Below are positions 33,258-60,757 of a DNA stretch of 64,000 nucleotides, piece after piece (position 1 is the stretch's first letter; every line of letters begins with the position of its first letter). This stretch comes from Gracilaria domingensis (lineage: Eukaryota; Rhodophyta; Florideophyceae; Gracilariales; Gracilariaceae), in assembly GCA_022539475.1 (NCBI GenBank), contig VCMS01000106.1:62001-126000 (forward strand), in the 5' to 3' direction. A program made the translations under genes and the position numbers. A model generated the notes under the pieces. It was given only the letters and a program-made list of their open reading frames with translations, was not told where the DNA came from and did not search any database.

Positions 33258-36200
33258 CTATTGCTCCAATGTCAGAGCCCATTCCCAGGCGTACTGCTGT
33301 CCGTAGTTGAAATACAACTCCTTGTCCCTCTCCATATCTCTTACTGATCTACAACGAACTAGAGTGTAGTTAGAAAGGTCGGACTTAAACCGTATCACGC
33401 ACTTCGCTTCCACCATCTGCACATTGGCACTTCGAGTCCTGTTGGAACGTGGCTGCGATAAATCGGGATCCCCGGCATGATATCCGGGGTCTTTAATGTA
33501 GCCCTCGATACGAAAAGGCGCCGGGATAATGTAGACTTCGCTCTCCTTTCTATCCTGAGCTTGTCCTGGCCTGTTCCTCAGGTGCAGAAACTCCGAAACA
33601 GTCACAGTGATCATCATGGAAAACGACTTGTACCGAACAGCAGTTGCTCCTAGACAGCCACCTCCATACGTTGAGTGTCTTTCATTCCGGTTCGCCAGAT
33701 CCGTGTGTACCAAAGTTCCACAAGAATGACAGTTAGTTTCCCGAGCCAATATCCTATGTTCCGTCAACACCCCCCTACCAGCACGGGGATGTCGAATCTT
33801 AGAAGATGCCACATGTAAGCGATAGCGATTGCTGTCAATCCAGCATATGCATATCCATTAGATTCAGAGCTCCTCGGTACTACTGGTCCCAAAGATCGAC
33901 AGTATGCTGCCCACATTTGTCGACAAACCCCCAGTCCTTCCAGTATCTTGCTCGGAACTGTGTAATATGTGCAGGCATCACTTGGTACTGGAGGTATCCA
34001 AATGGAGGCTCCCATTCAAGCCGAGTTCGGCCCCGATTTGGAACCCGTCTATAACTCGTTGACGCAGCTTCCACCACCTGCTGTTCAACCACGATGTCAT
34101 TCTTCCCCCCACGAAGAACTTCGGCCATAAGAGTCGTTATTTCGTGATTCGCATGGCTGAAACATGGCGTATTGCTCTCGCACCCCAAGAACGTGCTATG
34201 CTTGTCAGCAATAGGCACGCCATACCCGTAGAAATCGTTCCCGCGAATATTTCCAAGAAAAGATCATTCGGTCTTGTGAACCGACATATCAACTCTTTCA
34301 TCAACTCCCTGGACTTCTGCTCCGGTGTTATGTTCTGCGTACTTGCTACTAAACTACCAGGCTCATGTACCTTCCATGTCAGCCACTCCCCTCTCTCGTT
34401 TTCGGCACGCGGTCAATTACATTCGTAATTGCCGGGAAATTAGAAGGAATGAAATTGATCTCCTCAAATGGAGTAAGAATGGCTTTCTCCGATGCTCGCA
34501 ATCCATGATCTACCACATAAACGCCGTGCTCCGTCACGGGCTGTATCCCAAACTTCCGTAGATTCCCGCCAACACTACTTCGATCCCGGATGAAGACCAG
34601 TGGATTGCTATCTTCTTCAAACGAAGGCATGCGTTCTGGCTTACCTTCGCTTCCACTATCATCTCTCGTACTCGCCGTTTCTGAGAGTATCCTGTGTCAA
34701 GCATGAAACTGTGCCACGCCACAGAATATAATGAAGTGCCTACACGACCGAAGCGCGGAACTTTTTAAGTCTGCCGTATTGATCATGCCATTCTCACTGA
34801 GGACATCGTGAGCACTATTCCGTTTGCTCCACTTGCTTCAAGTGTTAAAGGGAGGGTCTGTTAGGATAAGCTGTGCCTAAACCCATAAAATCTCACTCTG
34901 ATTCACAAACGTCTCATGTGTGTGCCTCAGGTTCTTCATGTAACAGTTGTACGCTACAAAGTGCGACTTTATCATCTCCTTCCAGACCTTGATCATATTC
35001 ATTCGAAGGAGACTGGATATCTCCTTCATGGGCGGCTCAATACCAGTCTTCTGGATGTTGGACCCAGCAACGGGAGATTAATGCTCCGCACGATGCACCG
35101 GCTTCTCGAAGTCGTCGCTATCGGAGCTCACGAAGTCCATATATTTTCGACAAGGTAGGCTTGGGGCAGATTTGGTCGAAGAAGGTTCGGCACTACCGGA
35201 AGTCTTAGGAGGTTTAGTCAGTTCAATATCGGGTTTTGCGTGAATGCCCATATTGAACCCTCCCGCATGACGCATATCCTGTATCGGCTTCCATAGCAAG
35301 TCCGAAAACTTCTGAAATCGTGCAAGCAACTCACTAGAATCAGAACCAGATACGGTATCCATTCGTATCTCTGAAAATTCCATTCAGTTCGTCATCTGAT
35401 CAACCCGCAAGCTATAAAGACTATCCTGGGTGCATATGGTTTCGAGGTCTGTGAAAGAACCCTTAGCCAGTATTCGGAGGTTTGTATCGCATTCATCGCT
35501 CAAGATCTCCACCGATCCACTAGTACTGCTCTGTGGCACATTCGTGTGTTGATTCGAGTACTCTGGGTTGGCGGGGCATAACCAGACTCCCGTGTCACTA
35601 GTGCTGTATACTCCAACGTCTGCATATTTATGTAAATGTATAGTTTCACCATGTGCTGAGCGTTCGTATATCCAAGATGATCCGCAAAAGAACTCCATGC
35701 CCATACGACCTCGCTGATGGCAAATCCCAGTTGATCACAGTCTTCTTTGGAAAACGTCGTAAAAGTGGCTATGTACACAGATGGAGCATGGCTCACTTTT
35801 CGTTTCTTTTTCGCTTGTGTCATCTTTATCCTTCTGATGTTGTCGTTCTCTCCCACTATGTGGCCGAGGTATGATAAGTACATAACGATTTTGAATTGAT
35901 TCACAGCTGTTGATGGGATAAACACTGTTTTGTTCCAAACCTGCTTATTCTTGTTCATGAAATAAGCAACCAGGCATCGCACCGGTAGGTAAATACACAT
36001 ATCCATAGAGAGAAGGAAATAATCGCGGAGTTTCTGGTCTTCATCCCCGTCCTTCTTGTCAAGAAGCTTCGTTACAAGATATCGTTGCTCCACAGGTTTG
36101 TTATTCACAACACTCTTTCGCAGCTGTTGCAGTGTCAAGTTCTGCAGGTTCTTGGAGTTAGTGGTCTCCTCAAACATCTTCCTTGCCTCCGGAATATCCC

Positions 36201-36387
36201 TATAGGTCCCGGCGCAGAACTCTATTAGCCCTCTAAACCCGACGTCTCGTGGCCGATCAGGGCATTCATTGCTGTTTGCCAACGCATCGCGAAGAACCAA
36301 GAAAAGTCTGACATATACATGGAAAGCCGGAGGCGGAGCACTCATCTCCATAGTATGTATCTCTTCTCCATCATCGCTGGAATCCAT
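33258..36387 (-). pseudogene. R2 MT-SET gene: helical N-terminus, amino-DNA-methyltransferase, SET-like domain
   Basis: Start ATG 36387. N-terminal domain of about 270 residues (VYVRLFLVLRDALANSNE, DYFLLSMDMCIYLPVRCL) shared with R3 and R4, function unknown. A frameshift near 35600 and stops near 35384 and 35080 follow. Methyltransferase motif IV reads LILTDPPFNT at about 34835, a DPPF catalytic tetrad; downstream is FLGCESNTPCFSHA at about 34165-34205, matching FIGCERDEQCFAHA of R4. This gives the permuted order motif IV then I. A linker with GRTRLEWEPPFGYLQYQV precedes the SET-like domain at 33812-33258: PAPFRIEGYIKDPGYHAGD, then KELYFNYGQQYAWEW, the C-terminal SET motif. At least five frame breaks. 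Divergent from the R2 ParB-DO gene across a palindromic spacer. Enzyme class inferred from motifs in two paralogues. Confidence 0.66.
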
Positions 36388-38579
36388 CGTTTCAACGCAA
36401 GCAACGGAGGCGAGCCTTTTAATGGCGACTTATGCTGTGCAGCCCCGCTTTCGGCAGCTCCTCCCAGCGCACTGCCAGTCTCGTCCGTGTCCGTGTACGC
36501 TCGCTTCTGAGGTCGGTATCCGAGTCGCTTTGAGCGGGTGCGATAGCGTCGCGTGTCAGCCACGTCGCGATTCGGAGCTATTGCAAAGGTCGCGTATTGT
36601 GCTAATAGTCGCCGATCAAGTGGATGTGAAGCGCTAGTTTTGTCTAGTTTGATATATGTGCTCGGCGTGTGCAGCGAAATCACTGCAGAAAGTGCGAGGG
36701 GGCGTGTTTTGGGAGGTCTCCGGAGGGTTCCAGAATGTGCCCAGAACGTGCCCGCGGGCGCGGGGGGAGGGGGCGCCGGTCGTGTTAGGGTTGGTACTCT
36801 AACACGACCGGACCCACGGCCCGCGGGCATAAAATCGCACATTTTTCAAAAAATCGGCCAGAACGTGCCCGCGGGCAGGGTATTTCAGTCGTGTTAGGGT
36901 ATCTACCCTAACACGACGGATCCCGCCTCCCCACCCGCGGGCACGTTCTGGCCACATTCTGGCATCTTCCCGGAACCTCTCAAAACACACCAACTGGCAC
37001 TTCTCGCAACCACCGCGTCATTTCAGCGCACCAAACCGTCTTCTTCATCCTCCAAACGCTCCCTAATTCCCACGCGCACCACAAGTGCTGGAGAGAAGAG
37101 GGTGGTGTCGAGTGTCAAGGATGTGGGGGACTGCATGCATTCTGCGCCGTGTTCGACGACGGGGGCTGACGCACTGGATGCACCGCCGATGGCGATGGCA
37201 TGCGCAGGCACGGAGGGCTCCCCTGGCGCAGCAATACTTCAGGGCGCCATCGAAAGTAGTCTTGTCTAGTCTTGTGGTAAGCTATGAAACAACTTTTATA
37301 TTTCAGTAAACTAATCTTTACGCCAGTCATCGACTGCAAACGACGCAGTTTCATCCTGGAGCCATAAGTTCGTTACGGGCATGCAGCCCATCGAAGGGCA
37401 GCCGCTGTGCTCGCCAGCCACCGCGCGCGACAACAGCCTCACTCCGAACCCACGACACCGAGGGCTGCTGACAACAGGGTGTGAAGGGAGTTGCAAACGC
37501 GCTTCACACCCTTCTGTACGTTCTCTCCCTCTCGTCGTACCACCATTGTGCCACAAACACAAAGCGTCACAGTTCGCAGCCTCTATCGCGCCTCGTCTGC
37601 TCCCGGAGATTCTGTAGTGGGGCACCTCCCTGGCGCGCTCCCCGGTCAAGTGTTATGCTGCAAAATTGCAACTGCCTGGTGCATATACTGCAGGTGGCCT
37701 TGATCAAGACAGGAATGGGGACTACTGTACCAGGCTACTCAGCGAACAGAGTAGTGCCCTGCTCGCTGAGTAACCCTCTCAGTCTACCATTGAGTGGTTT
37801 ACATCCATGCTGCAGCCTGTAGAACAGGTGGAAACCATTGAATGGTACAGATTCGGCCACTGATTCAGTGAGGTGTAGCTCGTCGGAAGGGATATGGTGA
37901 TCGCAGAGAGAGTAGGTGTGGTGCGCGTGGGAATTAGAGAGCGTTTGGAGGATAGAGAAGACGGGCTGGCGCGCACAGGTGACGCGGTGGGTGCGAGAAG
38001 TGCCAGGGGGCGCGTTTTGGGAAGTCTCCGGAAGGCGCCAGAATGTGGCCAGAACCTACCCGCGGGCGGGGGGTCCGGTCGTGTTAGGGTACCTACCCTA
38101 ACACGACCAATCCCTCACTCCGCCCGCGGGCACGTTCTGGCCACATTATGGCACCGTCCTTAGACCTCCCAAAATACACCCCCCGGTACTTCCCGCAGTG
38201 ACTTCGCTACACCCGCCGGCCAGTACGCTAACGCCGCTTTCCACGTGTATTGGCGGGAGTCGGCTGTACATGTATGAGTGTACTTTTAACTACTATGCTA
38301 GTATTGTGAGCACTTGAAGAGCACGATTAGAGAGCGCTACCATTGCTCGCATGAGTGATCGTTGCGCGTACGGCACCACTTTAATGCGTACAATCAGCGT
38401 GCGAGCGGCCACGGACAGGACACGAACGAGACAGGCAGTGCGCTGGGAGGAGCTGCCGAAAACGAGGATTTCCAGGGTAAATCGCTATTTAAAGGCTTGC
38501 CACCGTTCTTGTATCGTCCAGAGCGACGGTATTCTTGATATACATCTTTTACTGCAACAGCTGTTCGACATGAAGCCAA
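36388..38579. promoter_or_regulatory. R2 spacer with symmetric promoters and palindromes
   Basis: The same promoter block stands at both ends in opposite orientation: 36404-36493 for MT-SET and 38413-38506 for ParB-DO, each with GGCGAGCC or GGCTTGCC, a TTTAAA-type TATA and the CTCCTCCCAGCGCACTGCC segment. Between them are palindromes P1 (core 36777-36811), P2 (36856-36953) and P3 (38014-38174), all centred on GTCGTGTTAGGG/CCCTAACACGAC and bordered by GAACGTGCCCGCGGGC. Smaller hairpins occur near 37476-37514, 37735-37773 and 37785-37853. No gene seen. Confidence 0.75.
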
Positions 38580-39684
38580 CTCGTGTTCGAAATCGTACGC
38601 AGGCGTGATTCCTCGCACACGACGGAGTACTCGATCATTGCAAGGTGGAATGCAGGTTTCTCCGCAGATGGATATTGAGAACGAAGGAAAGGTGATAGTC
38701 AGGGAAGCGTTGTTTCATGGAATTGTAAGTGTTTTACGCCGCGAGTTGAACGAGAAGCAATTAGACCCAGGTCTTGTGGTGGTTCATAATACTCTCATCA
38801 GTCGAAGCGGTCAAACGTTCTACCCTTACCGTGCGGAGGGCCTCGATCTTCCACAATACATCCAGGATCCCCGGATGGCCGCTCCTTGGGATGAGAAAAT
38901 GATGGAACTCGTGGCAGCCAGCATCCCAGGGTCTAAGTAACGAACTGTGAGCGCAATGAGTGAGGTGATGACTCTGACAAGCCGCACGGAGCCAATTCGA
39001 AGTTTATGAACACCGAGAGGTAGCATTTCAGTTGCACCGACGCAGACAGGTCCGTCGTCTGTTACGATACAGACTACAGAGACGAGATAATCCCCAGCTA
39101 CGAAGCGGATAGGCTGAACAAAGTACACCTCCGCTACGAAGCCCACTGGGTCGAGAAGGGCATCTCCTGCGATGAATCAGACCGTGGACACAAAGGGATC
39201 TTCTGCCTCGAAACAGACGGTTCAGCACAGGACAGCTGTGCAAGAAGAGGAAGATGAGATCATACAAGGTCCTTTTCCAGACGCGGATGAGCAATTCACA
39301 CAAAAAGCTGTTCTATCTCCACCCCAAGCTGCACTACAAATTGTGGAGCAGCAGCACGATGAAGTTGTGCTTCTGTCTGCAAGAATGGAACGTTAAAGTC
39401 TTTCTGGCGAGCGGTTTGGAGCACAAGGGAAACCTATTCGGAGCAAGATGTACAGACGAATTCATCAGAAGGTCCCAAAGGTGAACCTCAATCACTACTG
39501 GATGGCTGTCGTTACTGCTGACATCAATCTCGTAGACATTTCGCCCAATTTACTCCATGTAGTAAGTTAACTCTACGTTGAAGCCCTTTTGAGGAGTATG
39601 AAGGAGCAAGGGATATTGCAGTCGATGGTTTCTCCAGTGGTGGAGCTACAAGATGCTACTACTAGAGATAGGGATACCGACAAG
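38580..39684 (+). pseudogene. R2 ParB-DO gene, truncated inside the ParB-like domain
   Basis: Begins at ATG 38580 with MKPTRVRNRTQ, loses one base near 38615 against R1, and then follows R1 closely (KVIVREALFHGIVSVLRREL, GQTFYPYRAEGLDLPQYIQD). After a stop at 38938 the Ser/Thr linker and the QEQ-rich part remain readable in pieces, then VALLRSMKEQGILQSM-like sequence and ELQDATTRDRDTDK at 39640-39684, where identity with R1 ends before the IVDGLHRLKA signature. The dioxygenase part is gone. The next sequence is the tail of the R3 MT-SET gene on the other strand. This is the closest relative of R1. Confidence 0.7.
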
Positions 39685-39699
39685 AGACAGAGCAGTATA

Positions 39700-40412
39700 C
39701 AATAAACCGGTTCTACAACACTTTGCACATCATATTCTTCGCGTCCGACAGTATGTACAGGTATAACATACTCTCGACGTCCCAAACATGCATCGTTCTC
39801 TCCACAGCAAATCCAGTACGTTGACATGTATTGTTTCCAAAGTTACTAAACGACTCGAGGATTGTACTACGAACAGCACCCTTCGCCACACGTTTTTTTG
39901 CTCTTCGCGGTTTCCTTTTTTCTCCATATGTGTAGAAAGCTTGAAAGATATAAAAGAAGACCGAAGCGAGTTGGTCGAAGAATTGTTCTGAAAAAGGAGT
40001 CCGGCTGGTTCTTCACAGAATAGGAGATCGCCCTGATGAACGTAGTCAAATAACAACGACTCGGTAGGCTTTCAGCGGACCTGGAAAGCATCATGAAGAA
40101 ATCTCTCGTACGAGTATCTGAACTGTCATCCGTAATATCCGGTAGCCTGCATACGATGTACACCTGCTCCAAAGGTTTCCTTCCAACAACACAGTCTCTT
40201 AGATCTTTCACGGTGAAGTTCCTAACGTTCCGGGACTGTATTTCATGCTGAAGGAACTCTCGTGCCACATCCAGATGTTCGTGCTTCTCGGCGGCATACT
40301 GCACAATAGCGTGGTAACGAGGATCTCTAGGCTTCGAACTGGCGTCCAACTCATTGCCGTATTCGTCTCCTAACGCAAAAAAGAGGTTAGCCGTTCGATA
40401 GAAACGAAGCAT
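39700..40412 (-). pseudogene. R3 MT-SET gene, N-terminal domain only
   Basis: A frame from ATG 40412 (MLRFYRTANLFFALGDEYGN) through 39867 aligns with the N-terminal domains of R2 and R4: DPRYHAIVQYAAEKHEHLDVA, then YLSSFLHIWRKKETAKSKK. After a frame shift near 39870 it continues to about 39710 (STILESFSNFGNN, GFAVERTMHVW), matching ATFTTFSKED and GFAISEVVWAW of R2. The methyltransferase and SET parts are absent, lost at the junction with R2. Confidence 0.65.
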
Positions 40413-41216
40413 GGTGTCTGTGTGCGTATTGTCCTTTACGATGTAGTCACGTTTAGGCTGAGATGTTTAACTCGCTTTCTGCGCAAAGAGGAGCGGACGT
40501 AAAGAAAGAACGGTATTACTTGAGCCTCAATAGGTGTGAAACACCCCGCTTATACGAACGCCAGCGATGAAAACGCAATATGTGCTGAACAACCGCTAAA
40601 CTCAACAAAAACTAACTGTTAGGTCTAAATAGAAGCCTACTGAGATGATCTATCTCGGAACGTGTAAGGCTTCGAGAACAACTTGTACTCAACCGTTCAT
40701 TGCGCCCATCCGCGGTCCGAAATTGCCCTGGCTGCCAGGGCGGGCGCTCCGACGAGTTGGGCACCCCGCAAATCGCACCGGTTCAGGGGGGTGCCCAGCT
40801 CGCCTTGGCGCCCGCCCTGGCGGTCAGGGCACATTCGGACCGCGGGTTGGAAAATTCAACAATCTTATTTCATGTTCCGTTTCCCGTACGAGGGATATCA
40901 AAAAGGGCATTACACGCGAATGGACATGAACGAACGTATGTAATACAAATGAAGCCATGTTCAAGTACTTGAACAAGAACTCGCGTTAACAGTTGTATTC
41001 AAACTAAGTTCTTGCGAGAGGATCCTTAACGTCTTACGGGTATTCTTGTTATAACGCTGACCCTTAGCGTACCTGAGGTGTTATTATCAGGTTAATTCTC
41101 TGCTGGCACAGTGCATTGGAAGAAGCTGCCAAAAGCCGGGGTGTCTATTGTAAGTCGTGCGCAGAAGCAATTGAAACACATACCTCAGCATCGTTACTCA
41201 GAATCTGTAACATACC
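40413..41216. promoter_or_regulatory. R3 spacer with a large hairpin
   Basis: Divergent spacer between the R3 genes. It contains an inverted repeat with 57 bp arms (40711-40767 and 40788-40844), GC-rich, ends CGCGGTCCGAA, loop about 20 bp, arms roughly 85 percent identical. Its sequence is unrelated to the R2 palindromes, so the structure is conserved while the sequence is not. No gene. Confidence 0.75.
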
Positions 41217-43880
41217 ATGGTCAACGCGCGCCGCAGGTTTCGCCGCACGATCACCACGGGAAAGGTATCCCAGTCTGGCGAACAGATAATTCCTGGTTTG
41301 GCGGTGGATTTTCTCGTCGTTGTAGAAAACGTGGCCAAAGAGGTTGCTCGCCATTCGACTACGTTTGACGATAATGGCAGTTTGAAGACATCCCTTTACG
41401 GGTCTGAGCTGGAAGCCGATTGTGTCGTGATTCATCTCACTGAAATCATAGGTGATGAAAGTCTACCCTATCCCTATACGTTTGGAGCGGTCGAGGGACC
41501 CCCTGCGACGTTGGGTGATATACTTAGATCTGGGACGTACGCATGGGATAGGGAAATGTTCAGACCTCGCCGTGCCTCTCAGCGTGAGGACCGTAATCAA
41601 CAACAGCGGGAGCACATCCCGTTTCTGTTGCAGGTCCAGTGGAGCGTGAGCCTCAGCATGACTCGACTGCTGAATTGGGCAATGTGAAGGAGAACATTCA
41701 TGTCATCGGCAGCTCGGATGAAGAGGTTGCGGAGGTGAAGAGACCAAAGAGGACGCGAATGAAGCGTAAGAAGAGTATCTTGGACCTCAATATTAGCTCT
41801 ATGGACCTCACCGACTACACTCAGAGGGCAGTAACAATCGATATCACCCGCATAAAGAAACCCGAGCAGACCTTCCGTGGTATCAGTGAAAGTCAGAAGG
41901 GAGACTTATCCTAGCAAAACATGTTGTCATCGAATCATCATGAGGCGGTAAATGAAATTGATGTCTTTAAATAAAATGTAAGGGCACTTTCGAGGAGTTT
42001 AATTTCTTCAGAAAATCACAGTCATGGAAATGTAAGTGAAACAAAAACTTAATTATTTTCAATGACGTTGGTCATATTACCTTACCACACCCGTCATCTT
42101 CTCTCTAAGTCTACTGAAAACCATTTTAGGTTTCCCTTAACGACTTTTGCCTGGGTTAATTGAGAACTTTAGGAAGCGTGGACTGCTTGGTGCGTTTGGG
42201 CTGATGCGTGTGACAGTTGTTCGTGAGATTGACATGAAGAATGCGTTGACTGATGAAGACACAGTGTTTGTAGACTGACTGCGTTCTAGTGGATGGACAC
42301 CACCGTTTGATGTCATTGCTGCATATTCTAGAGCATTAAAAGGTCCGTCGATGGAAGACTATAACCAAGAGTGTGAGAGTCATGCTTTGAAGAAGAACGG
42401 ATGGGCAGCATGTCAGGGCGAGCAAGGTGTTGAGGCTTTGCGCAGTCCTCAATGAGGAGAGTGATGCTTTGTTGAAGATGAGGTTTGCAGACAAAGTTCA
42501 CTGTACTGTGAGTCTCATTAAGATTCTTGAATGTGCACATTCAATATCTGCGTCAGAACTCGACTTTGAACAAGTTGCACAATGGCTGCAAAGCAGTAAT
42601 GTGGTATCGGACGCTGAGAAGAAGCAGTACGTGTGGTATGCAGACCTTGCTTTAAAGCTCGTGAATACTCCTGGTATGGTAGAGAGGTTTGAGCACATGT
42701 GCGAGCATAATTCAGAGATAGGACTCACTCACTTCTCATACACAGAGTTATACAAACTGGAAGCTCACGAGTTTTGGTACGTTATGGAATTCATACGCCA
42801 TCTTGTGGTGAAAGATCCCAAGAACTATGGAACTATGCTTGGGTCATATTCGAAGATGTGCGCACATTTTTTTTCGGTAGGGCACTTGCAATATATCGGG
42901 CTGCCCCTACGGTCGGTGCTGAAAAGAAGCTGATCCTTGAGGACTTCTTCAAGAAAGCGTGCAGAATTTATGGAGATAGTAGTCCTCTGATTCCGGTTTC
43001 AGAGTTTGTTTTCGGGCAGGCTGTCTGTCAATCTAAGGATCCTTCCTCGTCGAGCTGTTCGCGAAGAATCGATCCAGCGAAGCGCCAATATGGTAAGAAA
43101 TAGGTCTCGTTTTTTCTTCGGCATTCAAAGTTTTACAGCTTCCAAAACGAAGCCTGGTTCTAGAAGTGCTCAGCCACCATCTTCGAGAACCACAAAGAAC
43201 AAAGAGAAAGCTGATGATGATGATGGGTTCGTGGTTGATTTAGGGGGAGATGCTGGACCCCCGGGTGTGCGAAGAATGCTGAAAGTGGCAGCTAAGTGGA
43301 GCACCAACTCCGGCCCCGGAAAAAGAGGGTTACAGAAGTGGGTGAAAGCTAAAGGAGGTGCTCTTCATCCTTTATAAGAAATAGAGAAGGAGATGGAGTC
43401 TGACGAAAAGATACAGCCATTCCAAGCCCCCCGTAAGAAGCGCAAATTTTCTCTTCTATCCAAGTTTGTGGACTTGTTTCGGAAGATGAACGTCGATGAC
43501 CTTATGAGGGAAATAAACGAAAATGTTATGAGCAAGAGGGGGGTTAAGCTGATGGTGATGGAGGAGGACGAGAGCGCGTTTGTCGATAATGAAGAAATGG
43601 AGGAAAGTGAAGCGGAAACGCGCCGGGTTTCGATGATGAGAATCCAGAAGAGCTTCCGGAAGAGGAAAGCTAACTGGCGAAGGGAGAACCGTATGGTGGA
43701 GGTGAATAACCAGCATGGTGTAACTTGACGGTTGTCTGTTCAAGCCGATAGGTGGGACAGAATCACATTGCCAATGGGGGGTCATGGCTGAGAGCGAATC
43801 ACGTGGCTGCAGGACATCTGTCTGAGCTATTGACTGAGGATGATTTACAAAGTGTCTATCACGCTTTGTATTGGCTCATC
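41217..43880 (+). pseudogene. R3 ParB-DO gene, diverged, 3' truncated
   Basis: Starts ATG 41217 (MVNARRRFRRTITTGKVSQ). N-terminal domain with PYPYTFGAVEGPPATLGDIL aligns with YPYRAEGLDLPQYIQDL of R1. A frameshift near 41640, then a linker with SIM-like HVIGSSDEEVAEV, then MDLTDYTQRAVTIDITRI. The ParB-like domain is split by an AT-rich insertion at about 41914-42150; beyond it LIENFRKRGLLGAFG aligns with LVKSMEERGILQSMG, and VFVD-stop-LRSSGW stands for FIVDGLHRLKA. The helical middle is long and well kept (42427-42870: LLKMRFADKVHCTVSLIK, SEIGLTHFSYTELYKLEAHEF). WLRANHVAAGHLSELL at 43786-43830 is the last match; the dioxygenase domain is missing after about 43880. Confidence 0.68.
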
Positions 43881-47811: not shown

Positions 47812-50800
47812 ATGTAAATATGTTGCTTCCCCCGCTGTGCCTTTCACACACACTCTATCGCCTCCCTTGCGCAACATCAGAAACGTTGCAGGCACCGGCA
47901 TGAACCAAACCCTTCTCTCACTCCTGCTGCCTCCCGCGGTTCCCTCTTCACCCCCGAACGAAACGTCGCCGACTCGGCAGTACCAAACCCTCTCTCTATT
48001 CTCCCTCCAATCGCCCCTCCGATAATGTAGCACTCGCCACTGACGAACCGTATGAAGAACAGCAGCTCGCTCTCTCCGTACGTTCTTCTGACGCAGCGCA
48101 TCTAGCTACACCACAACCCCCATTCAATTCTCAGTCCCTCTCCGTAGGTTCCGGTCATGCCCTCTCTCCGCCCGCTTCAAGTGATAACGTTCACAATCTC
48201 GTCACATGCATTTCCTCCATCGCCACGAAACTCGGAAAGCGCTCCGCAGACGAGCTTATCAACATTCTCAGGCAGTCCAACTTTCCCCTCTTTCTTTTCC
48301 AAACCCCCATCACCTCCGTTTCTGAGTGTCTCAAACTATAATCCAAAATACTTGAAGATACCATGAGCTCCATCGGCTTTACCTCCACTACCATTCACGA
48401 AAACGACCGTCAGTACTCTGCCACCCTCTATTTCAAGGACCCCATTCAAGTCCTTCAACAACAACTTCGGCTATCATCTCATGAGAAGGCCGTCTTTCAT
48501 CCAATTCACCACGCCTCCCGTACAGGAACCGACGCATTTGCGCTTCCAATGGACTCCAAAGTCGGACATAACGTCGTTCCCGCTCTGAAAAAACACATCG
48601 GACATTCTCCAAACCAAGGAGTCATCTGGCATGATCCCACCACTACTGGTATAGACTCCTTTATCGGCATGCGTCAACTCTACTCCGTTAAGTCCTCCAC
48701 CACTCTAAAAAGCTCCTCTGTCACATCATACCCCCTCCATATTACGTTTCTCAACTTCAAGGACTGCTTCCGCAGAAAATGTATCACATACCACCACACT
48801 GTCGTTGGATACATTCCCACTCCCTTTACATCCTTCTTCCCCGATTCTTCCTCCACCGACACCGACTCTTTGGAAATTGGCCCCTTGTCGTCGAACATAA
48901 CTCGCGTTGTGTGCATGGAGCTCGTCCAGAAGTCCTTGGAAACTATCCTCAAACCTCTGTACGACATATGCAAAAAAGGCTTCCCCTTCAGAGACGCCAA
49001 GGGAGTCCTTCGTCATTGCCATTCCATCATCGCTAACTATAGCGCTGACAATCCCGAAGCAAAGGACATTCTCGCTGTCCTCCACGGCACGAAATCAAAC
49101 AAGCTCTGTTCATAGATGAATTATCCCTCGTTCACAACTCAACGTCTATAAAGCCATTCTCAACGAGCGAACTGTATCCCACACCTCCGAAACGAGAAAG
49201 AAGCACCAAGATCTACTTGCCGGCGTTGAACAGGCTCTGCTCTACCGCAGACCCCGAGGGGCAAGGACCCTGAAAAATGAAGCTGTTGAACTACTCCAGA
49301 CTACCTCCTTATCCAGCTACAAGTCCTTTCTCGAATCATTCCCTATGCTCAATGTTTCCGAGTTGCTCACTCCTTACTCAATCTTCTCCTTCGAGCCCCT
49401 TCATAAATTTCATCTCGGAATCTTCAAACTCATCAAACCCGCCTCGATTGAACGCCTCAAGTCCGATTCGCTTCACACTTCTGTTGGTTCTCAGGGAAAC
49501 CCGAGGTCTTTCAACACCATTCGAACTTCTATTCTAAGCCACGCCAACGCCATTTTCGCCGACATTGAGCTCTACTATCCGGCACCCGGACTTCAAATTG
49601 AGTTCTCCTCATCCGAAAAGGGAAAATCTCTCAACGGTTTCTTCACGACAGACGGCATCAAGAGTGTATTGGAAGCCAAAGACTACCGTTCCCTTGATAT
49701 AGTCTTACCTTTCATTGGCGCCTTCTTTGACCGCTGTTGTGGTGAGGAATTCTCCGCCCCTATTACCACCGTGTTCACATCCTAGTTTGACCTCGTCAAC
49801 AACGTCCTTCGCTACAGTACCACTCCAGAATGGACTGAGCATCGCATAGATGCGTTGGAAACGATGATCAAGAACTTCAAGTTGCACACAGTCTCCATTC
49901 TCGGCCCGTACCAAGCCTTCAACTTTCGTACTCTTAAGTTCCACCTCCTTGATCAAATCATTCCAGACATACGGCGATACGGAGGCCTGCACTTCGGCGA
50001 TGCAGGGGTGTGCGAACATGCTCATCTTCTCTTCAAGAACCACTATCGTCGAACTTCTCGAAGGCGAACTACAGCTCATAAGGAAACGGTGAACGCCATT
50101 CAAGAGTCGCAGGCTATTTGCAATCCCCTTCGGTCAGGAATCAATTCTCTGTCTCCTTCAACTCTCGCAGCCTTTCCATCAACCGCTTTCCGGCCATCGT
50201 TCGCGACGATAACTCCTTCTCACTCTTTGACATCATCATAGTTGACAAGTACCTATGATCCCATCCACATGTATCTTCTTCGGCTCTGGCAGAACTTTTC
50301 TCGAAAACCACACTGCAGTTCATCAACCAAATATCTCGCGACGCTCTCACCTCCTTCCGCACCTTTTGTGTAGAAACTATTCAACAGCTGAGGAACCCTC
50401 ACGACATTAAACTCACTGTCGTTAATTTTGCATACGTTCTTAGCGGCTTCTGCTCCTCTCTCTATGATTACGATCGGGATCTTCGATGCATAAGACTGAA
50501 AAAGCCCGATGTACAACTATGTGAACGCATCTTCGCTACGACCCCCTTCGGACCTTCCAAGTTGCCTAAGTTCTCCACGGTTCTCGTGCACGGAACACCC
50601 CCTCCCAACTGTACGTTTTCCACAGCGTTGGTATGCAAAGTATTTGCATTGCTTCGCGTCAGGGACAAGACCTTAGACAAATCTGAACCGGAGCTCGATT
50701 TCGTTTGTTTCTTCGAAATGACAGAGCCCTTGGATAACGTTGATGAAACTCTGAACTGTATATCACTCCGTTGGGCCACCGACGAGCATGATCACACCGT

Positions 50801-51029
50801 GCATCCAAGTACGTCAAGGATGAAACCTCGTTCTGCTACGGTCTCTCCTTGGTTCGGGCTTATCCCGTTCTCTTCAATCAAAAACTCCATACACGTCATT
50901 TGCCAAAACTACCCTGCCCGACCATTTTTTCCTCCCCTTCACTGGAAATTCCATCGTTTCTACATTAACAGATTCTATCGTAACCCTCGAGCCTACATTC
51001 ATCATGCTCGTACTACGGAACATTCTTAA
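47812..51029 (+). pseudogene. Plavaka-like transposase, copy 3
   Basis: Opens with ATG 47812 immediately followed by TAA (TAC in copy 4), then ICCFPRCAF and HQKRC, the C2H2-like finger CCFxRC-x12-HxxxC shared with copy 4. Later KLGKRSADELINILR aligns with NLGHREADELIGLLR of copy 2. The longest clean frame, 48363-49115, holds LHITFLNFKDCFRRKC, VVGYIPTP and EAKDILAVLHGTK; 49345-49785 holds YSIFSFEPLHKFHLGIFKL; 49855-50110 holds LKFHLLDQIIPDIRRYG; 50562-51029 is the C-terminus with YPARPFFPPLHWKFH. At least six stops or shifts. Same family as copies 1/2 but in a separate subfamily. Confidence 0.72.
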
Positions 51030-51041
51030 CATAAACTGTTC

Positions 51042-52542: not shown

Positions 52543-55500
52543 TCAGTTCTCCCGGCCATCCCCTGTCCTTTCCTCCATCCCCTGCACTTCATAGTACTCG
52601 TCTTCTTCATCGCTGTCCCCTTCCTCGACCATCAACTCATCCTCTTCGTCCTCGTCCTTCTCATCCTCCACCAATTCTATGTCGACCTCAGAACCATCTG
52701 TGTTGTCGTTCATTCCCATTAGGTCGCCTTCTTTTACAAAAGTCGGTCCAAACGCGTGATTCAGATGAACTGCATCTGGCAAACTGCACTTCCCTGGTAC
52801 CATATACATATGGTAGCAAAACAGTGGGATTTTCGGAGACCTTCCATCTTTAGTGTCCGCACCTGCATGAAAGGCATTCCCCCTCCCAGTAAACACAGAC
52901 ATAGGTCGGACAAAGAACTTCCTCACAACCATTCCTCGTGCCAACCTTTCAAACGCCTTCGCTGTTACAGCAAAGTGACTGTAAGATCCTTCACATATCC
53001 AAAGTAGGAACGACACAGTTCCGGAGACCATCACAAAGTACCCCAGGGTTTTCCCCTCCAGCTTGTCTTCGTTTGTCAAGTTCTCGAAGTCGGTATGTAG
53101 TTGCTGTCGCTGGCAAGCGGCTCCGGTACATAAGATTCTCCCTCCGATCTTCGGTACATACATTCTGTCATTCGGTTGCTTGTTGTCTTGTAGCCCCAGC
53201 GTCGCACATATCTGACCAAGCCGAGCATCTAACAACGCCCTCTTCTTCACAAGCAAATGCGTCTACGGTCTAGTTTCCATGTCGTGCACTCTACCCCTTC
53301 TAGTAGTCATGTACCTTCCATTGTCCACGTTGATTATAGAACTCCATTTAGTTCGATTCTCTGGAACCCTGAGGTCTGGGGCTTCTTCGAAACATTTTTT
53401 TGAAGAAATCCAAAAATTCGACGCTTACATCCCCATCGATGAGCTTGCTGGGACTTTCAAGGCCAGTTGGTAGGAACTGCTTTCAACAATTTGAACCAGA
53501 AATCCCCCCTCGTAGGGTCCTTCGTCTGCTTTCTTCAGACCCGGGGGTAGAATTTCCGGGACTGTGTCGTCGAAAAGATCCGCGTCTCCCCGCGTCTCAA
53601 CATTCGGAGCTGAATCAGAGTCCGTATCGCTGTTGAAGGAGATTTGGTGAGCTTTGAGGAACCTTTTGACCCCTTTCCCTCCGAGCTTAGGCAGATGATT
53701 GATGACGAATGTTTCATCTCGGGGCACTTCGCTTACTTTCGCCTTCTTTTGAGACTGGGGTTGTTATCGCTCATCGTCTTCCTTCGTCGACAACTTCTTC
53801 TGGTGCTTCTTCTCAACCCCGCACCACTTGGCTGCACTAAAACCAGGCCCCTTTTAACTTCCTGAACGTCGTTCCCGGCATTCTACGCCTTATCACGTTT
53901 AGAACGCGACGTCCCAGTATCCGGTTTAGTGAATTGGGTCGTAAACATGGTCGTCTTTCCCCCTCCCGCCGTAGCAGACAGCCCCGCATTCGAATTGAAA
54001 TCCATTCCGACGGACGTCTTCAGCTTTTTACGACCATAAGCCCCCCTTCTCGATATCTTCCCGCCCCAAAGCTTCTTTGTCGCTGCAGTTTCCAGGCGTG
54101 CGGCCTGTGTCGCAACATTTTCACGAAGCTGAGTTTCTCAAACGTAGTGACTTCAATCTGGATCTCGTACACTTACAGGGTGAAATCGGTTTTGTCCTCA
54201 TCCATAGAAAGAACACATCACTGGAGATACATGTAATACCATTTTCATTACACTCCCGACACAAATTTTTAAATGCTTCAGTAATCGAGGACTCTTAGTC
54301 ACCTTCAAATCCATATTCGCAAACCTCGATAGATGCCTGATATGGTACTGGCCCATGATTCCGCATACACTTAAGGGACCCGCTACAGTGGTCATTGTCA
54401 TGTTGTTCAACACTTTCTTCTCCTCTCTAACCATCGCAGTTATAAAGGATACAATGGAATGAGACTTGTCGGCGAAGTTCATAAGTCGGGCCTGCTTCAG
54501 TCCATCGTTCAAAGCATTACCCAGGCTCAGAAGCTCCTTCGTGTTCATCCTTGGTCCATCCTTTCTCCTCCGTAAGGAAACGGTAAGTCCTTTACACATT
54601 TTCCTTATCTTCGCATCATCCTAACATAGTTCTTTGAGTGCCACAAGAAGATGAGCTCCATCTATGAGGATACTCGAAAGTTTCAAATGATTGCCCTCCA
54701 CCATCTCCCTCTCGGACTTACCCGTGACCAAAAAAGCAACACTCATTGTTCTAAGGGTCTGGAAAACCCTTTCCTTCGAATCCCGGCCTTCAGAGCTCAA
54801 CATGCTCCCGAACTGTCCCTCTCACAGTTGCGTCCGGGATTTCGATTAGGTAGATGTCCACCTTCACCGATTCGTACTCATAATTATCCAAGTTGAATCT
54901 GGGCGTCGCCAGACTCATATCCACGTCATCCGAAGGTAATTCATCACCTTCATAGAATAGTTCATTGACGTTTTCAGCCAAGCTCTCCTTCACCAAGACA
55001 ACGTCATCATCATCCACTTTATCCACATCCACAACTTCCATCCTAGCTCCACTGCCATTCCCAGCCATTGCAATCGCTTCAGCAGTGCTATTTCTCGACA
55101 ACCCAAACTGCGCATTCATCGTTGGTTGCTTCCGTAATGCAGAGACCGCACTCTTTGTAGTTAGGCTCAATTGTACAGTTTCTATCTCTGTACCACCCTG
55201 GTCTTGCTTCGATGGAGTTTTAGGCACAGGCCCAGGCGCTGGGGGCCGTACTTTCCTTCTCCCTTTGTTCTCCTGTTGTTTGCCTGATGTTTTGGACTGG
55301 GCTACGTGAGGTGGAAACCGCTTCTAACTCGGTATACGCGAGAGTTTCGGTGTTTCTGACATACGCACTGGTTTCCGTCCTGTCGTGGACGCTGCATTGG
55401 TATCCCTTGACTTCTTAATGAGCACCTGCGACGTGGTGTTCTGAACGGTCTCAGCCGAAACCATGAAGTTCAAGTCTCACGCATAGAAACCCATCTTGAT

Positions 55501-55950
55501 TAAGTGCGCAATGATCTTCGGAATGGAGTCTTCATCCGCACACTTAAATGGATGCCGTTACGGTGTATGGAGCTCCCTGGATACATCAGCTCGCCACATA
55601 CCGACTATATGCTCTCCCGGGTTCCCTTCCAGTGTGTGACAATGCATTTGTCTTTGATAGTCTTTGCCGTCGCCGGCAGACTCAATGGCCAACACGTCAG
55701 CTGTGACAATTGCGACCTTGTCCCTTCTATTTTCTGCGATAAGAAGCGTAACTTTTTCCCCCGGTGCGGGCTTTGCATTCCCCAGGTTAGAGCTCATAAT
55801 CGTCTCCGGATTCTTTGCTTGCTCACTACTATTCTTCCCTCCTTCTTTTGTCTTCTTCGCACTTCGAAGTTGGGGCGGGATGGGGTTCCGAACTTTCTGC
55901 GGCTTTCGGGAGCGCCTCATCTCCGGGTTCCCCAATCCTGTTGGCTCCAT
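52543..55950 (-). pseudogene. R4 ParB-DO gene
   Basis: N-terminus at 55950 (MEPTGLGNPEMRRSRKPQK) with a conserved-looking block RRDKVAIVTADVLAIES. Linker, then 55227-54790 with acidic SIM-like MEVVDVDKVDDDD and the ParB-like start VKVDIYLIEIPDATVRG; SILIDGAHLLVALKE at about 54640-54690 stands for FIVDGLHRLKA. Next is the helical middle (MNFADKSHSIVSFITAMV). The 53256-52543 frame is the dioxygenase domain: HTDF, a GRGNAFHAGA distal histidine, YHMYMVP, then an acidic tail. The 2OG-arginine position is Cys. Several frameshifts separate the parts. Most complete ParB-DO copy paired with a complete MT-SET gene. Confidence 0.66.
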
Positions 55951-57634
55951 TATATAGCGTGTTTGAGTGTACCTTCGTCAAAAACCTATAAAGATGGATG
56001 CAGAGCAAAGCGGTAATCGTATAATGTCCTGCTCACGTCAGCAAACGGCACACACGCTCAGTTTGAACATGGTACACGCTTCGCTGTCGGTTAAAGTGTC
56101 GCACCCGTTCGTATCGCAGATTTGTAGTGCAGCTCGGTGAAACGCTCACGTGAACATTCGCGTCACTTTCAAAGAGTGGTACAGGCAGTTAGAGATAGTC
56201 TAGAAGGCTTAGATGTATACCAGACAACATGATCAACCCTCACGGTTTCTGTCTGGTACCCTCCTGGGGTAGCCGGATGCAACATGTTCAGACCGCCGTC
56301 TGGACCGTGGTCTGAACACGTCGAATCTGGCCACTCCGCCACCCTACGGGGGGTGGGAAAGGAGGTTGTAGGGTACAAAGTAGAGCTGAGTAGAGCTATG
56401 CAGAGCACATTTGTGGTTTAACATCGCAGTTTATACGTATCTACTCAGAGAAAAGGAACCAATTTACGCGGATTTGGTTTAATCGAAGTTCAGTTGGAAT
56501 GCGGAAGATCACAGCCATTCGAGAATGAGGATAGTGGTTGCAGCATCAATGACAATTGCACTGTTATTATGATCATGGCTGTGTGTCGTGGAAGCAGTCT
56601 GAGAAGGACCTTCATCAGGTTTAGTGGCGGGCTGCGAATGTACAGATCGTGTCATTGACGTGTTCAGCTCTTGGTTTGGGTGCTAAAAAATGTGTTGATG
56701 CTGCATCATCAACACGGGTTGAGCGGGAAAGTGCAATCCACGCAACATGCGCTAGCTCGTATAAAACTGAGCGCCTGAGACAGACATCCAGCCCGGCGAT
56801 CAATATGTAACGCAGTCGTTAGGCATACCGAGATCAGCAGCAGCGATCAAGTTGGCTGCGTCGTCAAGGCAGCGCTATTATGGGTGTTTGCGCCTTGCGA
56901 CGGTCGTCTTCATTACGTGAAAGGCAGGACGGACGCTCTGGCGAGAGGGAATGTGAGAGCTGTAAAACTTCATGCTCGCTACTACATTGGTATTACTAGA
57001 ACGGGGAGTGGAAATACCTAATCCGGATGTTGCTCCGGACGCTCTCGTTGTTGAGTGCGATGGATGACGATGGCGTCTGGAAGTCTTGCGTCCTTGCAAT
57101 GCAACCGCTCTTTGGTTGGGCGTCGGCGTTCGAGCGCAAGCAGCGAAAGTGGATGCGGAGAGCGTACGGGAGATTTGTATGCAGCCCTATGATGGCGGCT
57201 ACGAGAGATAATGATGTGGTTAAAGCCGGTCAGAGGCGAAGAACGGCGAATCTAAGTCGTATAAGAGCATATCTGATCTGCCGCATGCACGCCACAACCC
57301 CCTGTACACGTGGTGTGGTGCTCGGTTCCACAGTCTCCAGACCACGGTCTGGACAGGTGGCATCCGGCCACCAGGGGGCTCACTACTAGACGTGATTCTA
57401 CACAAGTCCGCGTACTACACCCGCTCTCGCAAACCTGTTCACACCCCTCTGCATACGACAAACACCCGCTTAAATACCAATTTAGAATAAGGTTTCATCA
57501 CCACCGTCTTCTACGCTTTCGAGAAATTTTCCAGCGGGTTTCATCGACACCGTGTATTCCCCTTTCGCGAGTTCTTGTGAGAGTTACATGGCGCCCGTCG
57601 GAAACAGGCCCCCCGTTGTCTTAACAGCAGAGCG
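55951..57634. promoter_or_regulatory. R4 spacer with inverted repeats
   Basis: Divergent spacer of 1.7 kb. 56260-56303 and 57337-57381 are inverted relatives (landmarks CCTGG, GCCGGATGC, CAGACC), each containing its own small palindrome (AGACC..GGTCT); 56286-56317 is a hairpin by itself. Another hairpin is 56692-56715 (GTGTTGATG/CATCAACAC). Neither sequence matches the R2 palindromes. No gene seen. Confidence 0.6.
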
Positions 57635-60600
57635 ATGTCAACTACCGCATCTTCCGTTGCATCTACGGAGTCTAGCTCCGGTGAGAACGATATTATGGCG
57701 ACGTGGTTCCTCCGTTTGTTCAGCATACTTCTAGAGCTGAGAGACTCGTTTGCGGCGTCTCGAGCCGTCATTGGTTCCCCTCGTCATGTTGGATACACGG
57801 CTCTCGTTGAGTACGCTGTCGCAAACCGTGCCAGTCTGGCTTGTGCACTGGAATTTCACACGGATGTAACGAAGAGCACTTACACAAACTATACGCCGCA
57901 GGAGCTGGTGAAGATATGTACCCATGTTAGGTTCAGAAGTCGGGTCTATAAGTATGTCCGTATCATTGATGTGGATGACTGGAGTCAGGATCGTCGGCTG
58001 AGGGATCTTTTTGAATAGAGCTTGGCTGAGAATGTGGATGGCATGAATTCTTTTGCGGAGCGTGTGTTCTGGAATGACTTATTCAAAGAGCATGGTCCCG
58101 GATCCAACCAGACGAAGAAAACTACCTTCTGGATTGAGCCTGCTACTCGTTTTCAGCAGTTGCTCTATCTATCCATAGTGAAGCGTATCACTATGGAGAG
58201 GCCACTCTCAGTTGCGAAGAAGGCAAAGACTGCAACTGGTTCTCGGAGACAGGTGCAGTTTGTCGATGGTTTCGTCATGTCAAACCAAGGGCACAAAAGG
58301 CAGATGGGTCATGCTGTGCAAATGGTATGTCTAGGATGGGATTCCTTTGCTTCCAATCTTGGATTTCGTGACGCAGAACAAATGCTTTTACCGTTTCTTG
58401 CCATGGAGAAAGCGACGCTTTCTTTCGCGAAATTGAGTCCCGTGCTTCTGGATAGAGCCCAGCATTGGTGTTCAAAACATTGGGGATCGAATTGAAGCCC
58501 ACTACAGAGGTCAACGCTACTGTGCCTTGGGTTCACACTCTTTCGGATGATATCGATACCAAACTAAGGGATTTGTCGAAAGAGTTCCTGTCCGATTTGA
58601 ACAAGGTTGTCTTAGACGGATTTCTGTACAAAATGTCCGCTACTACCAAGTGGGAACTGCTGGAAGGCTTTCAAAGGAAACTTTGGACACGGTTACTATC
58701 TCGTTTTGATGCTTTCTACTATGAGTATTTGGCTACTCTTCGTACTGCTTTGTCCATCTCAACCTGAGAACTTCCCAGCAGGCATCCCATGGCCACTCTG
58801 TCAGGACATCAGGAAGGAAGCAACACGGTCACGGTGAAGATTGAGGATACGGTTGCGGTACAGAGAACCATTTCCTCCAGACCAACGGCTAAGGCACTGG
58901 GTAAAACATCCGGTAAAACATCCGGTGCAGATCGGAGTCCAGTGGATGTCATTGTAATAGAAGACACGGATGATGATGATGATGGAGCGCACCCTCTTTC
59001 TAATGTTACTGATGGTATTCTTCCACCTCACGACTTTGGCGATGTAAGGACGAGGAAGGCTCTCAGTCTGGTCAAGAAGAACATGGAGCAACAGTTCTAT
59101 ATGCATCGCGTTGGTTATGAAGAGATAGTGGAGGCTCATGATACACTGTTCCCTTCCAATAATTCCCTAAAGGGCAATTTTCGACTCTTACTCACGAACC
59201 CACCATATGGTATACGCAACAATGAGCATGATGAGCTTCTCGATGAAGATATGGTTAATACTGCAGAAATGATGGCCTCAATGCTTCGCTCTGGCGGTCA
59301 TTTTATATTGTTCTGCACTATCGAACAGTTAGCGGACTGGGAAGAGATTCTACGTGAGCACAAATCGGAGAATGCAGTGGGGAGGCAAAGAGATTCGTTC
59401 TTAGTCGACCCCAAACCGATGCAATTCATTCGATCTCGTACGCACACCTTGAAGATCCCCGGAAGGAACACAACACGGTTGTTCTCTACAACCGAGTACG
59501 CCGTGCACGGAGTCCGGAATGAAAACGCGTTCGAGGAGCAGAAGGTGATGGTGAACTACAAAACTTTCAACTACGTTACCACGCAGTACCCCGGGCATTA
59601 CTCCATTATCGATCAGGCTCCACATCTGGAGGCTGGTGAAGGACTCCGTCGGAGGGTAAAGAAGCGTTCCAATATACACTCGGTTCGGGTTCGCCCCAAA
59701 CAGAAACCGAGGGCACTGCCGAAGGAACTCATTGCAAGGTTCTCAAATCCCCGGTATGTTGTGGTTGATCCCTATAGTGGAACATTTTCCGGTGTCTTGG
59801 TATGCATGGAGATGGAAGAGCCCCGACGCTTCATTGGATGTGAGAGGGATGAGCAGTGCTTCGCCCATGCTGAACAATGCTGTAGTGATGTATGCGAGGA
59901 AGGTTTGGCGTAACGAGTTCAACGCAAGAATAAGTGTCGGTAATGAGATCGTACAAGCCTCTTATTTAGTACAGACAAAGTTCCCGGAAGGCAAGCAAAG
60001 AATCTGGCATCTATGGACCGCACCGAAAGGATTCCCGCCATACCAATTTTTCCCGTTTCATATCAATTCCTACATCGCACCTTTTTGGAGAGAACCGAGT
60101 CTCATCGCGTAGCAAAGGGAGAAACTGGTGCGCGAGTGGCCTCTGAATCTCCAAGGCACATTAGAGACCATGGATGACAGAGTTTGCTCGCTGCTGAAGC
60201 AGAAGGTTTATGGTTTTACAGGAAGAAATATCAAACACCCCATAAGTCAAGGTATAGTGTTCAGTACTAGATCATTCTCGGAAGGAAAGGTTGTTGGGTA
60301 CTTCTATGGGACATTGGTATATCATGACATAAGACGACGCAATGAAACACAGATGAAACACGGACGCGGAGTGCTCGGCGCCAGCGTTTCTCGTTTCAGG
60401 AGGTATTGCATGGAAGTGAAGCTGAAAGGGCAGATGTACAGCACGCTTTCTCACCATGATTCCGAATTCAATACTGCGATTGCCTGGGTAGTACCCGCTC
60501 CTTTCTGTATATCGGGCTATATCAATGATGCTTCGTACCGAGATGAGAACGAAGAGAAGGATTTGGCCGAGATGGAGCCTTACCAAGGCCGCTTACCAAA

Positions 60601-60757
60601 CGTCATTATTCGACAGCCCTCTGAGCACCAAGCTACCACATTGGGTACACTCGCAAGCTACAGACTACTGTTGGTGACGGCTACAAAGGATATTCATGAA
60701 CTCGACGAACTGTACGTGGACTATGGACCCAGCCATCCATGGGAGAGGTATTTGTAA
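57635..60757 (+). pseudogene. R4 MT-SET gene, most complete copy
   Basis: N-terminal domain 57635-58495 (LRLFSILLELRDSFAASRA), interrupted by TAG 58016 and a shift near 58480, then TGA at 58765. Methyltransferase frame 58789-59913: a SIM-like VIVIEDTDDDDD, motif IV LLLTNPPYG (NPPY at residues 137-140), GGHFILFC, and at the C-terminal end motif I as VVVDPYSGTFSG (residue 327 on) with FIGCERDEQCFAHA. Motif order IV then I is that of beta-class N6-adenine/N4-cytosine DNA methyltransferases. A shift near 59890 leads to the linker 59900-60110, TAG 60109. The SET-like domain is 60128-60757: GRNIKHPISQGIVFSTRSF, GYINDASY, IHELDELYVDYG. A natural stop follows at 60755. Confidence 0.7.

Follow-up and report, generated by a model that had tools for sequence, protein, structure and literature searches.

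A 64,000-nucleotide stretch of the Gracilaria domingensis genome (contig VCMS01000106.1, positions 62,001 to 126,000; hereafter the window, or C106:62001-126000) raises the question of what kind of genetic unit repeats, four times over, a gene encoding a ParB-like and dioxygenase-like protein (ParB-DO) opposite a gene encoding an amino-methyltransferase joined to a SET domain (MT-SET). A first-pass annotation had taken the pair itself to be a selfish or repeated unit carrying its own writer and eraser set. We found that the four modules, R1 to R4, are the central part of a Plavaka (CACTA-like) DNA transposon, so that the pair is cargo inside a larger element and not the unit itself; the Plavaka transposase, two further genes (g3 and HAD) and the termini of the same element had been omitted, as had the nesting of R1 within R2. 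This assignment rests on the transposase, on defined termini with a target duplication of 2 bp, on the nested insertion with its empty site, and on the large number of copies and their fixed gene order. The cargo points to a genetic parasite with chromatin marks of its own making.

Termini, insertion site and transposase of the element

The R1 element (16923..32517, forward orientation) measures 15,595 bp from terminus to terminus. It starts with CGTCTGT and ends with ACAGACG, and 13 of the first 17 positions are alike between the two ends. R1 interrupts the g3 gene of R2, and the target duplication is TA. When the flanks of R1 were joined with a single TA, they aligned without gaps over 293 bases (85% identity) to the uninterrupted g3 of a copy on contig C28. 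The element ends and target duplication, which the earlier description had left undefined, were thus obtained for R1 together with an empty site. The exact CGTCTGT terminus was found at 17 of 20 sampled ends, those on C158, C411 and C24 being off by one base. The flanks of the sampled ends differ by eye, save one common to C26 and C45, which are probably duplicated contigs. A 2-bp target duplication was present in two of three pairs of ends (TA for R1 and GG for C45), the flanks of C570 being different (AA and AT).

The Plavaka profile PF18759 matched the transposase in three window copies with 28.2, 28.4 and 53.9 bits against a cut-off of 26.3 (E-values of 1.2e-6 to 2.1e-14), and two further frames of broken copies were below the cut-off or without a match. 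The transposase of R1 (27704..30811, reverse strand; PF18759 at 1.2e-6) is split into three frames, as against frames of 1,100 aa in other copies.

Copy number and gene order

We searched 77,892,253 bases in 680 contigs for landmarks of the element. A red-algal host, probably Gracilaria, is also indicated by phycobilisome genes: 10 of 12 matches to phycobilisome families are on a contig of 179,836 bases (C680), and the phycoerythrin alpha chain had PDB 1eyx, the R-phycoerythrin of Gracilaria chilensis, as its best match, 1eyx being fifth for the beta chain. The landmark lists comprise the best-scored candidates, so that the counts are lower bounds and a neighbour missing from a list carries no meaning. 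There were at least 117 matches for the R4-type methyltransferase (MT; 557 first-look candidates, 110 scored), 56 for the R2-type MT-SET (best of 1,059 candidates), 46 for ParB-DO (best of 1,359), 75 for g3 (best of 1,640), 97 for the Plavaka transposase (best of 1,133) and 150 for HAD (best of 887). The ends were likewise repeated, with at least 40 matches for the left end (best of 647; query without the first 15 bp of the element) and 41 for the right end (best of 627). Some contigs look duplicated, and the matches are therefore not all independent. Pairs of matches with identical scores in the R4-type MT search, on C84/C505, C324/C571 and C36/C460, may reflect alternative haplotypes or duplicated contigs of the assembly, and some copies are therefore counted twice.

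The layout of the element is fixed: left end, HAD(-), ParB-DO(-), MT-SET(+), g3(+), transposase(-) and right end. Among the matches listed close together, order and orientation agreed for left end and HAD in 18 of 18 cases, HAD and ParB-DO in 15 of 15, ParB-DO and MT in 13 of 13, MT and g3 in 19 of 19, and g3 and transposase in 18 of 18, with a spacing of exactly 2,157 bp in 13 of the latter. Towards the right end, agreement was 7/7 from g3 and 2/3 from the transposase. Complete copies are expected to span approximately 22 kb, as estimated from the landmark spacings, and the listed ends on C570 are 22.9 kb apart. A host gene family at a single locus is ruled out by the copy number, termini and empty site. 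The selfish, repeated nature of the unit is thus strongly supported by its high copy number, fixed order, termini, target duplication and empty site, and further by constraint between subfamilies and near-neutral ratios among close copies, as described below.

Shorter copies were also observed. In R1, MT-SET is internally deleted, the start of the MT-SET region joining directly to g3 sequence, and the interval from left end to HAD is 2,882 bp, compared with 4,725-4,756 bp in the other 17 listed pairs. The distance from HAD to transposase on C158 is only 4.2 kb. Forty left ends were scored at 97% identity or more, with a listed ParB-DO within 9 kb for only two. It is possible that shorter, non-autonomous derivatives of the element exist.

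Head-to-head pairing of ParB-DO and MT-SET

All four units reported earlier are present in the window. R1 has a long ParB-DO frame (22408..25380, reverse strand; 990 aa covering the ParB-like region and linker) and no MT-SET. Divergent pieces of both genes were confirmed in R2 (MT-SET at 33282-36417, reverse strand; ParB-DO at 38605..39688, forward strand) and R4 (ParB-DO at 52543..55971, reverse strand; MT-SET at 57302..60757, forward strand). In R3, the pairing held in part: ParB-DO pieces (42280..43874, forward strand; 32-35% identical to R1) face an N-terminal, non-catalytic part of an MT-SET relative (39867..40466, reverse strand; 27-29% by tblastn, with MT-SET similarity at 39894-40406), and tblastn did not find an MT, SET or dioxygenase-like (DO) part in this unit. 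As had been noted, R1 and R2 are close (74% protein and 85% DNA identity in the ParB part) and R3 and R4 distant. All window copies are broken except for the ParB part of R1.

Genome-wide, the head-to-head arrangement was found for 13 of 13 listed neighbours and in 10 of 11 further copies, the exceptions being R1, C264 and, by spacing, C50. For the further copies, a sample meant to reduce bias, we went down the R2-type list from its first entry and selected 12 stretches upstream of MT-SET, of which 11 existed; copies with a listed ParB-DO neighbour, the C28 copy (already read) and C50 were left out, the last because its HAD-MT spacing of 2.1 kb suggested loss of ParB-DO. Some of the sampled copies are near-identical to one another. 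One of the ten, on C211, has a ParB-DO of only 48% identity beside a run of N, and no ParB-DO was found in the stretch sampled on C264. Four larger regions chosen for their MT match (C157, C12, C28 and C233) all had divergent ParB-DO pieces upstream. The pair and its orientation are retained down to approximately 32% MT-SET protein identity.

Proteins encoded by the module

Long frames of both genes exist outside the window, up to 1,121 aa for MT-SET and 1,308 aa for ParB-DO (the latter stop-free and read from C81). In three MT-SET copies (1,121, 1,118 and 1,055 aa, the last from C171), both MT and SET exceed their Pfam cut-offs. MT matched PF01555 at 7.9e-15 in a long-frame copy and at 4.7e-14 in R4. 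SET reached 32.2, 28.2 and 23.1 bits in the long-frame copies against a cut-off of 22.4 (E-value of 1.5e-7 in one of them), compared with 20.5 bits in R4 (6.6e-4); R2 was likewise below the cut-off (0.017). The nearest structures in PDB were DpnA (1.6e-8) and CcrM (1.1e-6) for MT, and chains of KMT2A, at only 0.006, for SET. The longer frames have DPPY or DPPF in the MT part, where the broken R4 has NPPY; further along comes D.YSGTFS or DMFAGTFS. We take these to be motifs IV and I, respectively, in the order typical of the beta class. MT is predicted to be a beta-class N6-adenine-type DNA methyltransferase, and the writer set proposed earlier is consistent with these domain matches. The available part of a study on a rotifer methyltransferase links DPPY with N6-adenine and SPPY with N4-cytosine (PMC8885841).

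The other two protein labels stood only in part. The ParB-like region matched a PHROG ParB-like profile weakly (5.8e-4) and contains a GLHR motif by eye; the Pfam ParB family and NCBIfam gave no match, and PDB no meaningful one. In DO, the residues HTD and a distal H are conserved in three sequences (R1, R4 and the C81 copy), so the HxD...H motif of the proposed dioxygenase is present. No profile match accompanied it: no Pfam family was found up to E = 10, the alignment profile retrieved nothing from PDB up to E = 10, and a single-sequence search gave chance-level matches only. Neither Pfam (up to E = 10) nor the PDB profile, both judging from sequence, recognised a TET/JBP dioxygenase in this region.

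The HAD-like gene of R1 (20279..21034, reverse strand) matched PF08282 at 1.1e-4 (22.5 bits, cut-off 20.9). Motif I of HAD proteins normally has Asp as the nucleophile; the R1 and C28 copies have SVDGT, with Ser at that position, and the protein may therefore be inactive. A second HAD frame that retains Asp (L036:283-1110; 48% identical) adjoins the C28 copy.

Palindromes between the two genes

The window was searched for palindromes with arms of 12 or more paired bases, a spacer of up to 4 and no more than one mismatch. Eight were found. Three are in the inter-gene gap of R2 (36430..38570; palindromes at 36776-36811, 36885-36920 and 38077-38108), and the remaining five are in right subterminal regions, four of R1 (31128..32094) and one of R2 (11843-11876). 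These five are unrelated palindromes and possible transposase-binding sites. In the copies read, the gap on C12 contains a perfect palindrome of 76 bp and, with the same core, one of 46 bp, that on C233 two palindromes with one mismatch each, that on C28 one palindrome beside a run of N, and that on C157 a shorter, different one, with another at the end of the SET gene. The upstream stretches from C81 (250 bases) and C171 (200 bases) held none.

Allowing up to two mismatches, we counted 1,358 genomic sites of the R1-type palindrome and 100 of the C12 type, and the backward controls gave 0. Positions were examined for the first 50 sites of each type. For the C12 type, 39 of the 50 sites are upstream of an MT match and no more than 4 kb from it, the distance being 1,555-1,585 or 2,050-2,078 bp in 32 cases, and 20 pairs of listed sites are 494-498 bp apart. 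The 50 R1-type sites fall into 19 clusters, each with one to six sites, and 19 of 31 spacings are 103-114 bp; for only five clusters is there a listed landmark no more than 8 kb away. By eye, the palindrome of this type at 36700-38200 in the window forms the inner part of a longer dyad whose outer arms are around CCCGCGGG and GGCCAGAACGTG; elsewhere, its clusters repeat approximately every 110 bp. Its core contains TTAGGG, possibly by chance.

The palindromes differ in sequence between subfamilies and keep their symmetry and place in the copies read, as is expected of sites that co-evolve with a protein binding them as a dimer. The ParB-like region would make ParB-DO the first candidate for this protein.

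Selection on the cargo genes

We estimated ratios of nonsynonymous to synonymous substitution rates (dN/dS) by NG86, with YN00 as a second estimate for close copies. Between subfamilies, MT-SET gave a ratio of 0.11 for C12 and C157 (63% protein identity; dN 0.27, dS 2.56, 1,092 codons) and 0.09 for C12 and L003, and ParB-DO gave 0.15 (519 codons, C157) and 0.13 (677 codons, R4); as dS was 2.0-2.6, near saturation, these ratios are rough. Among close copies, NG86 ratios were 0.45-0.80 for MT-SET (six comparisons) and 0.91 for ParB-DO (two comparisons), and YN00 ratios were 0.48-0.99 for MT-SET and 1.10 for ParB-DO of C81 and R1, some of these values being raised by shifted-tail frames that were left untrimmed. 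Both genes show long-term constraint followed by near-neutrality, as would genes that the element requires during its multiplication and that are released from selection once it has inserted.

Possible roles of the cargo

We lean, with no great margin of confidence, towards the view that the module is conserved cargo of large cut-and-paste Plavaka transposons and would mark the element's own chromatin against silencing. MT-SET would methylate adenine in the DNA of the element as well as a lysine of the histones close by, and in this way the element would set its own chromatin state. ParB-DO would be recruited to the element, with the subfamily-specific palindromes of the inter-gene gap as its most likely anchor, and may use its oxygenase-like domain to remove or alter a host silencing mark. 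Jointly, the two proteins would keep the element transcribed and transposition-competent despite host silencing; a DNA transposon in a silenced genome would gain by writing active or private chromatin on itself. In ParABS systems, ParB binds palindromic parS sites, usually together with ParA. A parS-like form of self-recognition, in which ParB-DO loads on the palindrome arrays, spreads and, with MT-SET, builds a private, subfamily-specific chromatin domain, can be put forward only tentatively; with equal reserve, this domain would consist of adenine and histone methylation with the host mark oxidised away.

Several observations weigh against a chromatin-marking role. The profile searches described above did not recognise the ParB-like region in Pfam or DO in any family. 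One of the two genes has been lost in some copies (R1, C264 in the stretch sampled, and C50 and C158 by spacing), recent copies appear almost neutral, and the low ratios come from near-saturated comparisons, dS for the more distant C171 type being beyond computation. Palindromes are missing from the R1 gap, which is deleted, and the R4 gap has a single one of only 24 bp. No listed landmark was nearby for 11 of the 50 C12-type sites or within 8 kb for 14 of the 19 R1-type clusters, and the palindromes could instead be sites for the transposase, for replication or for any regulator that acts as a dimer. The termini also match neither of the fungal types given in the available text of PMC12730594 (TGT..ACA in PlavakaA and CATCA..TGATG in PlavakaB, against CGTCTGT here), for which reason the family was filed as Plavaka-related and not as A or B.

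Among other explanations, a role in transposition itself, which we regard as possible and rather unlikely, fares best. Methylation of adenine in the palindromes or ends would time the expression of the transposase or the cleavage, with the ParB-like domain organising or nicking the DNA of the element. The location of palindromes both in the inter-gene gap and in the right subterminal part of R1 fits this role, as does the long-term constraint on both genes, and the Bacillus cereus protein Bce_0392, a ParB domain fused to an adenine methylase, nicks, according to a study cited in the accessible portion of PMC5512222. Yet this role leaves the SET domain unexplained, and R1 inserted or persisted with intact termini and no MT-SET, either event possibly having come first.

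We consider it improbable that the divergent genes form a conflict system like restriction-modification, with a ParB/GmrS-like nuclease, MT as protector, and rival elements as targets or an addiction module as the outcome. MT indeed resembles type II methyltransferases in PADLOC (2.8e-12), and the ParB region weakly matches GmrSD_N (0.02), but at 15.5 bits this match is far below the cut-off of 33.2, and PADLOC found nothing in ParB-DO up to E = 1. PADLOC otherwise gave only methyltransferase-type matches and one 'mad2'.

It is also very doubtful that captured genes without a function for the element simply travel as passive cargo. The dN/dS of 0.45-0.91 between close copies and the existence of deletion derivatives would be consistent with this, but not the values of 0.11-0.15 between subfamilies or the maintenance of pair and orientation across such diverged MT-SET proteins.

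A remnant of a giant virus or virophage in place of a transposon, suggested by the multi-gene cargo, long frames and DNA methyltransferase, is hardly credible given the Plavaka transposase, the terminal inverted repeats (TIRs), the 2-bp duplication and the lack of an MT-SET or ParB-DO relative in IMG/VR, no systematic search for viral hallmark genes having been made. In IMG/VR, the scans for an endogenous virus yielded 39 and 1 pattern matches, and none of these could be confirmed as related to either protein. Bacterial and archaeal genomes scanned with MT-SET gave 12 pattern matches, none confirmed. Two of these scans used a single protein and reach close relatives only.

Relation to known systems

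Transposons with chromatin enzymes are already known from TET+ Plavaka elements of fungi and SET+ HarbingerS/MuDR elements of oomycetes, as far as the available text describes them (Kojima 2025, PMC12730594). The fungal TET+ Plavaka and KDZ transposons carry oxygenase-type cargo thought to counter silencing. The algal element shares with TET+ Plavaka a Plavaka-type transposase, TIRs, a 2-bp target site duplication and, putatively, oxygenase-type chromatin cargo. In that text the fungal cargo is TET/JBP, with no mention of MT-SET or ParB, whereas here DO is without a profile match and an adenine-type MT-SET and palindromes are added (PMC12730594). HarbingerS/MuDR of Phytophthora, named in the same text, are likewise transposons with a SET histone methyltransferase, but belong to other transposase superfamilies, and the text does not describe SET as fused to a DNA methyltransferase. 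In Amoebidium, a Plavaka transposase likewise flanks giant, intron-poor, multi-gene repeats; the cargo named is tyrosine recombinases, with only distant lineages such as dinoflagellates or red algae giving matches, and the accessible portion of the report does not mention MT-SET or ParB-DO (PMC11244446).

Similar domain combinations are described outside Plavaka elements. N4CMT of bdelloid rotifers is, as here, a bacterial-type beta-class amino-methyltransferase fused to a chromatin domain, and it acts on eukaryotic DNA; according to the part of the article available, it is a host gene with SPPY (4mC) and a chromodomain, whereas the algal protein is element-borne, with DPPY/F and SET (PMC8885841). 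ParB-like domains also accompany N6-adenine methylases in mobile elements, as in the ParB-methylase and polyvalent proteins of phages; in the text available, ParB and methylase are in one protein in bacteria, and here they are encoded by two divergent genes of a eukaryotic transposon, each fused to another domain (PMC5512222). Among the papers listed in term searches of the open-licence PMC literature, at most 40 per search, there was neither MT-SET or ParB-DO in a Plavaka element nor palindromes between cargo genes of such elements, and within these listings the cargo combination and its palindromes appear to be new.

If the chromatin-marking reading is true, red algae would have a transposon that brings a writer of DNA bases and a writer of histones in one protein, adjoining a protein that may provide targeting and oxidation. 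With numerous, partly near-identical copies and subfamily-specific palindromes, self-recognition and adenine methylation of the transposon can be tested directly in a seaweed that can be cultured.

Further features of the window

The right part of R2 lies in reverse orientation at 10444..16922, as identified by blastn against R1, tblastn and the terminus CGTCTGT at 10444, and includes a degenerate Plavaka transposase (12469-15491, forward strand; tblastn) and, from 16712, a C-terminal scrap of g3. Beyond R1, R2 continues at 32518..36417 with the N-terminal part of g3 (32519-33133, reverse strand), followed by the degenerate MT-SET; this stretch was aligned with the C28 copy by tblastn and by blastn (87.5%). 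The ParB-DO of R2 is a degenerate N-terminal part whose homology to R1 (blastn) stops at 39688.

Between the left end and HAD, R1 has an open reading frame (ORF) of 341 aa (17391..18416, reverse strand), coiled-coil-like by eye and without a Pfam match. Its DO part lies in another frame (21455..22093, reverse strand; HTD...H) and was aligned with the R4 and C81 copies. The g3 of R1 (25615..27366, forward strand) has no Pfam match, and its homology to other g3 genes begins near 25790.

R4 has a left-hand ORF (44443..45078, reverse strand), a relative of which lies left of ParB-DO in the C12 copy. Its ParB-DO consists of DO and ParB pieces, and its MT-SET of an MT frame (58768-59913) and a SET frame (60113-60757). 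The start of g3 follows from 61065 (forward strand), with homology to C157 ending at 61846, and then a fragment of the Plavaka transposase (61869-62382, reverse strand; tblastn). A fragment of another R4-type element with a Plavaka transposase and right part (46734..51026, forward strand; PF18759 at 2.1e-14), 87% identical to 63828-61865 by blastn, appears from the spacing to be nested inside R4. Beside this truncated fragment, a 267-bp unit occurs in two tandem copies that are 89% alike (46023-46554).

Rfam gave 0 matches at gathering thresholds in the window. A 494-aa open frame at 2085-3569 (reverse strand) matched only DUF3800, below the cut-off, and ORFs at 4550-9898 resemble, by eye, fragments of Ty1/copia-type retroelements.

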